From: a virus
IMG/VR virus record: IMGVR_UViG_3300025168_000450
Location: 1-29,008 of that record
Direction: 5' to 3' (one strand)
Length of the DNA: 29,008 nt
In this document: piece after piece, positions 975 to 29,008 of the stretch
Layout of the letters: each line of letters opens with the position of its first letter
Numbering within the stretch: the first letter of the stretch is position 1
Made by a program: the position numbers and the translations under genes
Notes under the pieces: generated by a model
Database searches by the model: none
Told to the model about the DNA's origin: nothing
The model's input: only the letters and a program-made list of their open reading frames with translations

Positions 975-1166
975 CTACTCTTCAATGGACAAGTCAGTTT
1001 CGTCTTCTACTACTATAAACAGTTTGTCAAGCAACTTGTCTAAAGAGATGTCATCTTCTATTCTTTTAAACAAGCGTTTGACTTTGCCTTCTAAGTTTTT
1101 CTTTGGTTTATTTCTTATATACCATTCGCGTTGGCGTTGCTTCTTGGTATAGTCTTTATCGCTCAA
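975..1166 (-). CDS. 63-aa charged protein, TTG start, function unknown
   Basis: This small ORF starts at TTG (1166-1164), inside the 3' end of the 128-aa gene, and overlaps it by 11 bases. The N-terminal half is strongly basic (KKQRQREWYIRNKPKK around residues 8-23) and the C-terminal half acidic, with a likely amphipathic helix between. There is no ATG in the frame, so the TTG start with a weak AAGAGA-like site is the only option I see. I recognise no family. Its place between a DNA-binding protein and the terminase genes suggests a packaging or regulatory accessory, but that is only context. Confidence 0.5.
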   Translation of the reverse strand: MSDKDYTKKQRQREWYIRNKPKKNLEGKVKRLFKRIEDDISLDKLLDKLFIVVEDETDLSIEE

Positions 1167-1542
1167 TGTTGTCTCTTAACTTAACAACTGCTTTCTCATA
1201 GTGTTGTCTAACTTTTTCGTAAGAACACTTCTCTTCTTTTGCAATAAGTCTTAAACTTTTATTCTGCTCTGCTATGCCGTAGAAGCACCTTCTTTCAAAG
1301 GGGGTAAGGAGACCATCTATGTTATCACAAAGTGTCTCATACCGCTCGTCAGAGCCTCTGTCGTATGGTTCCTGAGCGGGGAATGTATCTAGCCAAGTCT
1401 CACTAGCATAGACAACCTTAACCCAGTCATCATACAGGGGACATTTAACTATCTGTTCCCAAGTTTGACAAGTGTCAAACCTATCTGTGTGTGTGCGTCT
1501 AGGGACGCGGCAAGTAACCTTGCCATACTTTCTTCGTGACAT
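1156..1542 (-). CDS. Sigma region 4-like helix-turn-helix protein (128 aa)
   Basis: The C-terminal third (about residues 79-124) reads LTPFERRCFYGIAEQNKSLR, then IAKEEKCSYEKVRQHYEKAV, then KLR. This pattern (L-T-P-x-E-R, then I-A-x-E-x-x-C-S-x-E-x-V-R) is typical of the sigma70 region 4 helix-turn-helix that contacts -35 DNA. The N-terminal 75 residues are unrecognised, basic at the start (MSRRKYGK), with three Cys in the first 35 residues. I chose the ATG at 1542 because GGAGG lies 9 bases upstream and a sigma70-like promoter lies just before that. A longer frame starting at 1581 would begin upstream of the predicted transcript start. It could be a late transcription regulator, an ArpU/RinA-type activator, or the DNA-binding small terminase, since terminase genes follow directly. 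No region 2 is present, so it is not a complete sigma factor. Confidence 0.7.
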   Translation of the reverse strand: MSRRKYGKVTCRVPRRTHTDRFDTCQTWEQIVKCPLYDDWVKVVYASETWLDTFPAQEPYDRGSDERYETLCDNIDGLLTPFERRCFYGIAEQNKSLRLIAKEEKCSYEKVRQHYEKAVVKLRDNIER

Positions 1543-1569
1543 ACAATAAAACCTCCAAGTTTTAAACAT

Positions 1570-1598
1570 AATATAACACACTATGTTCTAAAAGTAAA
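1570..1598 (-). promoter_or_regulatory. Sigma70-like promoter for the 128-aa regulator and terminase genes
   Basis: On the minus strand TTTACT (1598-1593) and TATATT (1575-1570) are separated by exactly 17 bases, matching 4 of 6 and 5 of 6 consensus positions. It lies in the short gap after the 231-aa gene and immediately before the GGAGG ribosome site of the 128-aa gene. It would give the packaging genes and portal an internal start in the long leftward operon. Confidence 0.6.
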
Positions 1599-22008: not shown

Positions 22009-22269
22009 TTATTTATTTCTTTCTTTGTATTCAAACCAAGTTTTATACAAACCAGTTTCAGTGTTCTTTATATAAAAGTCTTTTACTAAGTCCCACATTG
22101 AAGTCACTCTTATCATTAACAGACCGGCTTCTACATTGTGTTTCTCAGCAACCGTCTTGTAGTTTAAGTCCCACTCACTCTTTGCTATTCTTGTTGGTTT
22201 CAGTTCTTTTATTATTTCATTTAACTCTTCAACAGTTGGTCTCTTATAGGGCTCAGGTCTGTTTCCCAT
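22009..22269 (-). CDS. 86-aa possible DNA-binding regulator, first gene of the leftward operon
   Basis: This small charged protein contains YKTVAEKHNVEAGLLMIRVT (about 47-66), which resembles a helix-turn-helix (T-V-A-x-x-H-N-V, then a second helix). The match is loose and no family is recognised. It is the first gene leftward of the control region, with a strong GGAGG five bases before the ATG and a TATAAT element about 40 bases upstream of the ATG. Being next to three palindromic sites makes it one candidate for the protein that binds them (inference). Confidence 0.68.
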   Translation of the reverse strand: MGNRPEPYKRPTVEELNEIIKELKPTRIAKSEWDLNYKTVAEKHNVEAGLLMIRVTSMWDLVKDFYIKNTETGLYKTWFEYKERNK

Positions 22270-22309: not shown

Positions 22310-22338
22310 ATTATACGTTTGAGCGACAAGAAAAGTGA
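22310..22338 (-). promoter_or_regulatory. Leftward promoter of the main operon, perfect -10, poor -35
   Basis: The minus strand carries a perfect TATAAT (22315-22310). At 17 bases spacing the -35 hexamer would be TCACTT (22338-22333), a poor match. The GGAGG site and ATG of the 86-aa gene follow. A good -10 without a good -35 suggests activation by a bound protein, and three palindromic sites begin about 57 bases upstream of the -10. Confidence 0.6.
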
Positions 22339-22347
22339 AACACAAAA

Positions 22348-22450
22348 TGAAAATAGTTGATCTTTTTTTTCTTGACACTTTGTCAAACTTACTGTGACAT
22401 ACTGTCATAACCTACTGACAACTTGTCATCAAACTTTTTTGAAAATAGTT
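22348..22450. repeat. 11-bp direct repeats flanking the operator cluster
   Basis: TGAAAATAGTT occurs at 22348-22358 and again at 22440-22450 in the same direction, 92 bases apart, bracketing the three palindromes. The interval also has A/T-rich tracts (eight T at 22363-22370, six T at 22435-22440). It may be a second protein-binding site pair or part of a replication origin. Confidence 0.5.
22372..22428. promoter_or_regulatory. Three palindromic operator sites TGACA-N3-TGTCA
   Basis: Perfect inverted repeats occur at 22373-22385 (spacer CTT; extended by one pair to 22372-22386), 22395-22407 (TAC) and 22416-22428 (ACT). The arms are identical and only the three-base spacers differ. Centres at 22379, 22401 and 22422 are 22 and 21 bases apart, about two helical turns, so dimers bound there would sit on one face of the DNA. 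They lie between the divergent promoters, nearer the leftward one. No gene overlaps them. Confidence 0.85.
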
Positions 22451-22528
22451 ATGCTTTTGACTTTTCAGCATACTACTTATTAATGAAGGCAGCGAGGAAC
22501 AGGGTGAAAATAAACTTCATCTTTCTGC

Positions 22529-22557
22529 TTGACATCTCATCCCCTCCGTGCTATATT
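22529..22557 (+). promoter_or_regulatory. Strong rightward sigma70 promoter of the early operon
   Basis: Consensus TTGACA (22529-22534), a 17-base spacer and TATATT (22552-22557, 5 of 6) form a near-ideal host-type promoter. The predicted RNA starts near 22564 and carries a small potential hairpin (AAGGC/GCCTT) before the GGAG site at 22604-22607. The quality suggests immediate expression by unmodified host RNA polymerase. Confidence 0.85.
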
Positions 22558-22616: not shown

Positions 22617-23342
22617 ATGAATGTCAGTAAAAATAAAATGTCGGAGGAAGGTCGTATCCGATACGACTGGATCAAAGACTGGAAGGTAGGCGACCTGCTT
22701 ACCAATGATCGCGGGGACACTATGCTCATCGCAGGTATTGACCTTGACCAAACTAACAACTGGTCATACGAGGGTCGTCGCTACGAGCGATACTACCCAA
22801 CCCAGCGTAACGGATCAACTTACGCTAAACTATTGATCAACAACTTGACGAGGAGCGAGAACTATGCGTGCCTCATCAGTTATACGATGAAGGACTTCGC
22901 AGGAACCCTTTGCTACGGCGAGAGCAGGGAAGGCAGACCAGCCTTCCCGTTCTGGCAGTTTAGCCAAAAGGCTGACATTGAGCGTGAGCGTCTTCATCAG
23001 AAGGCAATAGACGATGCCCACGACAAGGCGGTCCACGCGATTGATACACTTATCTGGGACTGGTTTGGACCATGGGAACAAGGCATCGTCAAGAACCCTA
23101 TTGACTTTATGGCTTATATGAAGACCATCACCGAGGTCAATGGCAAGCCTGTGTCGGATGTTCAACTTGAACAATGGTCGGTAGACCGGATGCGCAACAC
23201 CTCCATCCCCGGCTATGACAACGCGTTGGAACTAAATGTCAGGGTCAGTTATGAGATGGACGGTAAGTCCTGCCGTGGTAGTAACAGCGGACTGTGGGAG
23301 TTCAACACCGGTGACAACTGGGAACTGTGGGGCTCCCAGTAA
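22617..23342 (+). CDS. 241-aa early protein of unknown function
   Basis: This is the first gene behind the strong rightward promoter, with GGAG nine bases before the ATG. The product is soluble and rich in Trp and Tyr (for example NNWSYEGRRYERYYPTQRNG about 43-62 and IWDWFGPWEQG about 145-155), with a helical middle (ADIERERLHQKAIDDAHDKA). There is no membrane span, Cys cluster or nucleotide-binding motif, and I recognise no family. Early timing and the sigma-like gene coupled to its stop suggest a host-takeover or regulatory role, but nothing in the sequence proves it. Base composition is richer in G and C than most of the leftward genes. Confidence 0.85.
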   Translation: MNVSKNKMSEEGRIRYDWIKDWKVGDLLTNDRGDTMLIAGIDLDQTNNWSYEGRRYERYYPTQRNGSTYAKLLINNLTRSENYACLISYTMKDFAGTLCYGESREGRPAFPFWQFSQKADIERERLHQKAIDDAHDKAVHAIDTLIWDWFGPWEQGIVKNPIDFMAYMKTITEVNGKPVSDVQLEQWSVDRMRNTSIPGYDNALELNVRVSYEMDGKSCRGSNSGLWEFNTGDNWELWGSQ

Positions 23343-23896
23343 TGGGAGCCAACTGGCACTTAGAGAAGTGGTGGAACACCAACTGGGCTCTGATGTTTTG
23401 GAAGATGAAGCATCAGACCCACACCTCTGGCACTATCCTTGGATGGTATCAGACGGTGTTCCCCTACACCTCTACCTACGATCTAGTTACTGAGATCAAC
23501 CAAGAGTTCCTCGCAGCAAAGACCCAGTGCTTCGTTGAGAACTACGACCCGAGTTGTGCGAATGTTAATACATACGCCATAAAGTTATTTCATAACTGGA
23601 TCATTGACAGGCTACGCATTAGTATTAAAAGAAAAATAAAGGAGTTACCTATGGAGCCCAAGAACATTGACGACTACATCGTGAGCGCACTGCACAAGAA
23701 GCAAATGACTGAGGTCATCTTTGAGTGTGTGTCCACAACAGAGGAGCGCGAGTTGCTTCTCTTTAAGTGTGGCTTTATCAGCCGCGACAAACTAGCAGAG
23801 CAGTGGGGTTGCACCCCGCGTTCCGTCACCAACCGGTGGCATAAACTACAAACCAAGATGGTTAAAGAATGGAAGGAGTTATACAATGACGAATGA
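23342..23896 (+). CDS. Sigma-factor-like protein (184 aa) with region 2- and region 4-like parts
   Basis: Residues about 47-98 contain DLVTEINQEFLAAK, FVENYDPS, TYAIKLF and IIDRLR, matching the layout of sigma70 region 2 (D-L-x-x-E, F-D-P-S, T-Y-A, I-x-D-x-L-R). Residues about 124-175 contain TTEERELLLFKCG and then RDKLAEQWGCTPRSVTNRWH, a region 4-like helix-turn-helix. This two-part design is that of small (ECF-like or phage) sigma factors that redirect host RNA polymerase. I chose the ATG at 23342 because it overlaps the previous stop as TAATG, like many genes here; a GTG at 23327 would add five residues. The GIY-YIG gene overlaps its end by 11 bases. Assignment is from motif reading only. 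Confidence 0.7.
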   Translation: MGANWHLEKWWNTNWALMFWKMKHQTHTSGTILGWYQTVFPYTSTYDLVTEINQEFLAAKTQCFVENYDPSCANVNTYAIKLFHNWIIDRLRISIKRKIKELPMEPKNIDDYIVSALHKKQMTEVIFECVSTTEERELLLFKCGFISRDKLAEQWGCTPRSVTNRWHKLQTKMVKEWKELYNDE

Positions 23897-24359
23897 ACAG
23901 ACCGAGAGAGGCTGCACGAAGTGTGGCAACAGACTACCAATAGAAGAGTTTTATAAATGCAAAAAGGGGAAACCTATTTCCCAATGCAAGAGTTGTAAAA
24001 GATCATACTACAAAGCAAATAGACAGCGACATAAAGACCAGATGATGAAGGACCAATGGAACGACTACCATACTGTTTATTGTATTTCGTTTCCAGATGG
24101 CAAGCGTTATGTTGGATGCACCAGACGCAAACTAAAGTATAGGTTACACCACCATTGGTCAAGTAAAAGCACCGTGTATAGATACACAGAGGAGAAAGGT
24201 TTTGATAGAAGTAAGTGCCGTATTGTTATCATTAAGGATCGCATTATGGATGAAGCAGAAGCAAGAAGAGTAGAAGCAAAAATGATAGAGAGCGGTATGA
24301 AGCAAGGGTTCCTGATAAACAAGAAGCGATCGCTTAAATACCTTGACAATACTGTTTAG
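23886..24359 (+). CDS. GIY-YIG endonuclease with N-terminal zinc finger, 157 aa
   Basis: The N-terminus has two CxxC pairs (Cys10/Cys13 and Cys34/Cys37) spaced as in small treble-clef or zinc-ribbon fingers that bind DNA. The nuclease domain follows: VYCISFPDGKRYVG (residues 64-77, the GIY and YIG strands), an Arg/His-rich helix (RRKLKYRLHHHW, 80-91), a likely catalytic Glu in EARRVEAKMI (Glu130) and Asn145 in LINKK. Such enzymes are often homing endonucleases in phages, or serve recombination or host-DNA degradation. It has AAGGAG seven bases before the ATG, overlaps the sigma-like gene by 11 bases and ends the rightward operon. It is poorer in G and C than the two genes before it, consistent with separate acquisition. 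Confidence 0.88.
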   Translation: MTNEQTERGCTKCGNRLPIEEFYKCKKGKPISQCKSCKRSYYKANRQRHKDQMMKDQWNDYHTVYCISFPDGKRYVGCTRRKLKYRLHHHWSSKSTVYRYTEEKGFDRSKCRIVIIKDRIMDEAEARRVEAKMIESGMKQGFLINKKRSLKYLDNTV

Positions 24360-28021: not shown

Positions 28022-29008
28022 CTTCTATATCTCCTATTCTGTTTTAAAGGGTGTGCCGTTTTCGGCGTTCTAATGTTATTTCTTCTGCTATTAAACATAG
28101 CCTTGTCCCATTCACTCTTTGGCATTGGCACATCACGCAGGTGATACAAGCCAATAGCGAGTGCCATAGCCCTGTCATCGTGTAAGCCGGGAGGTGCAGA
28201 GGGGGCAAGACCTTTGTTATCTTTTACTAAACCTCTTAACTCTGTAAATGTTTTATCATCTAAGTTAAAGATCATTTGTTCTTCAAGATAGTTGCGTAGG
28301 TGCTCATACACTTGTATCTTACTTTTTTTAGTTGTTGTGAATGGACGGTAGTTAGTCCAACCGCGACTGTCTAAAACTTCTTTATAACCAGCACCGTGGT
28401 TGTTGGCTTCAAAACAGATCTGTGCGCGGTATCGCTTGGCTAGGTTCATACAAGCGACAGTAAAGTCGTGAACTGATAATGTGTTGCTGCTAATGATAGC
28501 AACTGGAGAGTGGCTAATACGGGAAAGTATTATACCACAGGAATAGTCCCCACCTGTGCCGCCACCCACATCCACACCAAGGATGTAACTGTCACGGGGA
28601 TCATACTCTTCCAATACTGTAACTGTGTCATTGTTTATTTCTATTTTCTGTATGTGTTCAAAATGAACATCTGTAAAGTAGTTGTCGTCTGAAAGTGAAT
28701 AGGCTTCTTCTATTGTGATAGGGAACTCACGGCGGAAGAGACGCTCATCTTTTATTTCTTTTATCTTTTCTCTTCTCCAGAAGACCTGCTCTGGTGACAG
28801 GTTATGCTCTTCTGCTATTTGTTCTTCAAGCGCATCCATCTCAAAGCCACCCTTGGGTAGAGCCTTGCGATACTGTGGGAAAGAACACCATGGTAAGAAG
28901 ATAACTTTCCAACGGTCATTGTAGTTCGCGTCTAAACAGATACGGTGTAACGCATCTTGGTAATGGTTTGCTGTGCTTTCTATAATGATCTTACCGTCAT
29001 TGATAGAA
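28018..29008 (-). CDS. terL: Terminase large subunit, C-terminal nuclease part (continues at 1-694)
   Basis: This is the 3' part of the gene begun at 694-1; the frame is open to the right window end. Within the 499-aa protein it holds the RNase H-fold nuclease that cuts concatemeric DNA: GVDVGGGTGGDYS with Asp316 and Asp324, then CFEANNHGAGY and LHDDRAMALAIGLY, which supply the other acidic metal ligands. The C-terminus is basic (KQNRRYRR) and ends four bases into the portal gene as an ATGA overlap. Bases 28824-29008 duplicate 1-185 and should be counted once. Confidence 0.93.
   Translation of the reverse strand, partial: SINDGKIIIESTANHYQDALHRICLDANYNDRWKVIFLPWCSFPQYRKALPKGGFEMDALEEQIAEEHNLSPEQVFWRREKIKEIKDERLFRREFPITIEEAYSLSDDNYFTDVHFEHIQKIEINNDTVTVLEEYDPRDSYILGVDVGGGTGGDYSCGIILSRISHSPVAIISSNTLSVHDFTVACMNLAKRYRAQICFEANNHGAGYKEVLDSRGWTNYRPFTTTKKSKIQVYEHLRNYLEEQMIFNLDDKTFTELRGLVKDNKGLAPSAPPGLHDDRAMALAIGLYHLRDVPMPKSEWDKAMFNSRRNNIRTPKTAHPLKQNRRYRR
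28824..29008. repeat. Terminal redundancy with bases 1-185
   Basis: These 185 bases match 1-185 except for A at 28882 against C at 59. Because the repeat lies inside the large terminase gene and contains a silent difference, it looks like an assembly overlap of a circular or circularly permuted molecule, not a packaged physical terminal repeat. Confidence 0.95.

Follow-up and report, generated by a model that had tools for sequence, protein, structure and literature searches.

What do three palindromes with identical arms do between the divergent promoters of a small uncultured phage? The window, by which we mean the whole stretch of 29,008 nucleotides analysed here, carries TGACA-CTT-TGTCA at 22373-22385, TGACA-TAC-TGTCA at 22395-22407, and TGACA-ACT-TGTCA at 22416-22428 (none assigned to a strand), with centres and starts 22 and 21 bp apart. 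An initial sequence-only reading had described exactly these perfect arms, spacers, and distances, and an exact-match scan reproduced all of them. The three units are the only exact TGACA-N3-TGTCA matches in the 29-kb window, all within 22373-22428, and two-mismatch matches occur at chance level (17 found vs. 16.9 expected). The accompanying claim that such an array is improbable by chance was likewise borne out, as 160 random genomes (60 first-order Markov sequences with the composition of the window and 100 with the local AT-rich composition) did not yield a single three-copy array of 5-bp palindromes, whatever their sequence. Other palindromes with 5-bp arms (gap of 0-8) formed no three-copy arrays in the window or the relatives examined, C/G-run artefacts in L170 excepted. 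The array itself is real and conserved, and it belongs to a familiar class of multi-site binding arrays. Since relatives both keep and multiply it, it is almost surely a docking array for a dimeric DNA-binding protein that either controls phage genes or starts DNA copying. The genome that carries it is complete at ~28.8 kb and either circular or terminally redundant (its class in the collection is linear), because bases 1-185 of the window repeat the last 185 (28824-29008) at 99.5%.

Conservation was the test on which the sequence-only reading had staked itself, and the array is kept in L125, L315, and more distant relatives. In L125/L139, with a portal protein 85% identical to that of the window, it occupies the same place and comprises nine units, eight of them perfect. 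Six units, five perfect and one degenerate, are present in L315, which was found by scanning 2.9 million viral contigs for trios at two-turn spacing (41 records, complete listing). The spacings of 20, 22, 14, 20, 22, 14, 22, and 21 bp in L125 and of 20, 22, 14, 21, and 20 bp in L315 divide both arrays into three-unit modules, with steps of 20-22 bp inside each module and of 14 bp from one module to the next. Thus, the array appears to grow by trios, with one trio in the window, two in L315, and three in L125. An alignment of the window with L125 across the three shared units, in which differences were counted by hand, gave no change in 30 arm bases vs. 12 changes in 26 spacer and linker bases (Fisher p 1.7e-5). 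Unit 1 is identical in L125, while units 2 and 3 keep their arms and have the spacers TTA and GTT there; in this alignment the arms bear the mark of selection. The place of the array relative to the early promoter is equally fixed, with 100 bp from the array end to the -35 element in the window, 100 bp in L125, and 92 bp in L315, the promoter having the form TTGACA-16/17-TATA(T/C)T.

Distant relatives (portal identity ~35%) carry the array upstream of the terminase gene in L179 and L181/L072, and a decayed version is found in L182; in L181 and L182 it sits between divergent operons. No array was detected in L184, L190, and L186 among these distant portal relatives. The terminase promoter of L190 retains its conserved sequence without an array, which is therefore not needed there. 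The proposed phasing of all sites on a single helix face holds for the trio of the window but not across the family, where 14-bp steps occur in L125 and L315 and unit spacings are 31/18 bp in L181 and 20/17/13/16/20 bp in L179. A purine/pyrimidine orientation of the spacers might have been a directional signal, but duplication of units explains it, and with respect to the operons it is reversed from one subgroup to another; the idea was therefore dropped. Among these more distant genomes, L181 (1391-1855, minus strand) and L183 (15645-16097, minus strand) also carry a gene whose product looks, from a reading of its sequence, like the C-terminal DNA-binding domain of DnaA; RusA-like and initiator-like genes are its neighbours.

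Both divergent promoters are present as initially described, with the correction that the leftward -35 element matches at 4/6 positions and is mediocre, not absent. The leftward sigma70-type promoter, TTCACT-18-TATAAT (22310-22339, minus strand), has its -35 element 33 bp from unit 1 and surroundings that are unchanged in L125, while the -35 element of the strong rightward early promoter, TTGACA-17-TATATT (22529-22557, plus strand), starts 100 bp past the array end. As the array overlaps neither promoter, simple occlusion is unlikely. Relative to the inferred leftward start, the unit centres lie at about -76, -98, and -119, and activation of the leftward promoter by a bound protein, as initially proposed, is possible. 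On its left the array is flanked by TGAAAATAGTTGATCTTTT (22348-22366, plus strand), and a near-copy of this AT-rich repeat forms the right flank (22440-22458, plus strand). Between array and early promoter lies a conserved block of 33 bp (22468-22500, plus strand), matching at 30/33 positions in L139 and 29/33 in L315. A tiny ORF (MKAAR..., first codon ATG, GTG or TTG) may begin within this block.

We tentatively favour, at a probability somewhat short of even, a multi-dimer array that controls transcription at the divergent junction and is bound by the phage's own 86-aa protein. In this reading, dimers of a helix-turn-helix protein would occupy the three TGACA-N3-TGTCA palindromes, each two helical turns from the next, and their binding would probably be cooperative. 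The array lies in the divergent intergenic region, with the 86-aa gene and the rest of the leftward operon on one side and the early operon that encodes a sigma-like protein on the other; the bound complex would start 33 bp upstream of the leftward -35 element and stop 92-100 bp short of the early promoter. The 86-aa protein is encoded by the first gene of the leftward operon (22009-22269, minus strand), next to the array, where the gene of an autoregulated regulator would be expected.

The 86-aa protein was one of three candidate binders named in the sequence-only reading, and it is the one that stays live. Its structure model is all-helical (pLDDT 77), and the fold matches are mostly to helix-turn-helix and homeodomain DNA-binding folds, all weak and not significant. 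Relatives occur in L139, L315, and L180/L141; the gene flanks the array in the window, L139, and L315, and in L180 the relative is accompanied by two sites, one exact and the other degenerate. Relatives were not found in the array-bearing L179, L181, and L072, which are 9-kb fragments, nor by a back-translated scan, and the protein gave no significant match in Pfam, PHROG, a PDB sequence search, or phage tblastn. While no binder was identified by homology, the 86-aa protein is the best phage-encoded candidate. The second candidate, a 241-aa early protein of no known family (22617-23342, plus strand; no significant match in Pfam, PHROG, or phage tblastn), is found only in L139/L125 and the near-identical L123/L124 and is disfavoured by its absence from L315, although the array is present there. 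The third, a 128-aa protein, is probably the 141-aa ORF at 1156-1581 (minus strand) read from an inner ATG, with a weak match to sigma70 region 4 (E 3e-4). Its gene sits in the packaging cluster and is also found in L140, a fragment without the array, and its candidacy is unsupported.

In the early operon, a 184-aa protein (23342-23896, plus strand; listed as a 189-aa ORF at 23327-23896) looks like an ECF-type sigma factor when judged by its modelled structure. Its strongest Foldseek matches are sigma factors, although weak (E 0.2), and its C-terminus, the segment with the best pLDDT, aligns with sigma region 4 at a VIA-align Z of up to 9.3, which is moderate for a helical domain and supportive rather than proof. 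Searches against Pfam and PHROG, including the profiles for sigma regions 2 and 4, returned no significant match. In tblastn only RepA-like helix-turn-helix segments of mycobacteriophages were retrieved (E 0.2), which we treated as chance. Relatives are encoded in L139, L140, L180, and L315, those in the latter three being divergent and the L140 fragment lacking the array; L315 thus carries relatives of both the sigma-like and the 86-aa protein. The gene that follows (23886-24359, plus strand) encodes a 157-aa endonuclease-like early protein with PHROG matches to endonuclease VII, HNH, and homing endonucleases.

The form of the array had been thought unusual, and this did not survive a wider survey. 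Arrays of nearly the same make-up are frequent beside TetR genes, within HTH_36 initiator genes, and upstream of heat-shock genes; in this grouping the name TetR reflects a reading of protein sequences, and HTH_36, Hsp20, UVR, and Clp are Pfam matches. In viral contigs, paired palindromes were detected in at least 119 stretches vs. 11 for a control with reversed arms, and the literal TGACA-N3-TGTCA motif and its variants had no match in the open literature searched. In AT-rich phages the palindrome precedes genes for Hsp20, ClpC-like, or UVR-domain proteins, mostly as pairs 30-32 or 41-43 bp apart, which suggests a phage-carried heat-shock-like regulon. Such sites were seen in L004, L010, L022, L064, L101, and ~47 other AT-rich viral loci. 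As the same arrays accompany several apparently unrelated gene classes, the sequence form alone cannot name the binder. In L019, a pair of this palindrome (1282-1316) is found at a distance of 94 bp from what reads as the gene of a Rep_3-type plasmid initiator.

The array could also be the iteron set of a phage replication origin, where an initiator would bind the palindromes and melt the AT-rich flanks. We regard this as possible and nearly as likely as a transcription operator: phage initiator genes are where the palindrome at the spacing of the window occurs most often, and the scanned proteins of the window match no known replication gene. At least 23 of the 41 viral two-turn trios lie inside HTH_36 (PF13730) replication-initiator genes and two more appear to do so, a count that favours an origin and weighs against the operator. 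These in-gene arrays of three to seven units have spacings that peak at 21-23 bp, like those of the window, and by analogy they look like iterons of the lambda-ori type; contigs that bear them include L308, L330, L309, L051, L023, L316, and L325. The variation in copy number among relatives (3, 6, or 9 units) and the AT-rich repeats on both flanks are also consistent with iterons. An origin would need an unrecognised initiator, given that none of the scanned window proteins matches a known replication protein. On the other hand, no HTH_36 relative occurs in the window or its relatives. Moreover, the array of the window is intergenic, not within a gene, and it has decayed in L182 and is missing from L184 and L190. 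Neither a GC-skew switch nor a cluster of DnaA boxes marks the array: the only DnaA box lies far away, and GC skew was uninformative for placing an origin.

Transcriptional control and replication might also meet in a single element. The array would then be a three-dimer module, copied by trios into 3, 6, or 9 units and read by a new family of 86-aa helical DNA-binding proteins. Such a module would tie the transcription of early (sigma-factor) genes to that of virion genes and might serve as the replication origin as well; we consider this doubtful.

It is more improbable still that a host regulator, e.g. a TetR-family repressor, binds the sites and is exploited by the phage. The idea draws on bacterial genomes, in which 84 of the 116 three-copy arrays lie near a TetR-family gene (at a median of 36 bp). 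These arrays (L191-L306) occur in Bacillaceae, Lachnospiraceae, and others, with efflux and MFS genes as recurrent neighbours. However, their units are mostly 28-37 bp apart and favour C..G spacers, with 123 of 257 spacers ending in G vs. none of the 29 units in this phage family. A search of 398 genomes of one phylum for relatives of the portal protein found none. By far the least probable is that the units act as single-stranded DNA hairpins, such as promoters for virion RNA polymerases of the N4 kind: each unit folds into a hairpin of 5-6 bp with a 3-nt loop (-9 kcal/mol, z -2.7), but any such palindrome would fold alike, the 1996-aa virion protein matches no virion polymerase family, and the units stand at two-turn spacing with loops of varying sequence.

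Within this small group of uncultured phages, in which no known replication gene was recognised, the array is the only cis-element with strong conservation, and finding its binder would therefore reveal how their genomes are activated and perhaps replicated. That one palindrome serves apparently unrelated families of regulators and initiators makes it useful for examining how operators evolve convergently, while the wider survey warns against naming a binder from the form of a motif alone.

Several known systems resemble the array to different degrees. The pairs before Hsp20, ClpC-like, and UVR genes of AT-rich phages share the identical palindrome and a position between divergent genes, but their two copies usually stand at distances of 30-32 or 41-43 bp, and the window has no heat-shock genes. 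The TetR operator arrays of Bacillaceae and other bacteria likewise share the palindrome, here in three tandem copies. Their usual spacing of 28-37 bp and their C..G spacers set them apart, as does the lack of a TetR gene in the phage; a search with a TetR profile had no hit in the window, in its relatives, or in the viral loci that bear arrays. Closer in spacing are the iterons inside HTH_36/DnaD-like genes, which resemble those bound by lambda O within its own gene at the replication origin: they combine TGACA-N3-TGTCA with distances of mostly 21-23 bp and three to seven copies, whereas the array of the window is intergenic and neither lies in nor adjoins an HTH_36/DnaD_N initiator gene. The tripartite operators OR and OL of lambda, which are bound by CI and Cro, differ in that the window has 13-bp sites with 5-bp arms that overlap neither promoter, that no CI/Cro-type gene was found in the phage, and that copies grow by modules of three. 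Nevertheless, in both systems divergent promoters enclose three palindromic sites of the dimer type at a spacing of about two turns, and the gene of a small putative regulator is adjacent.
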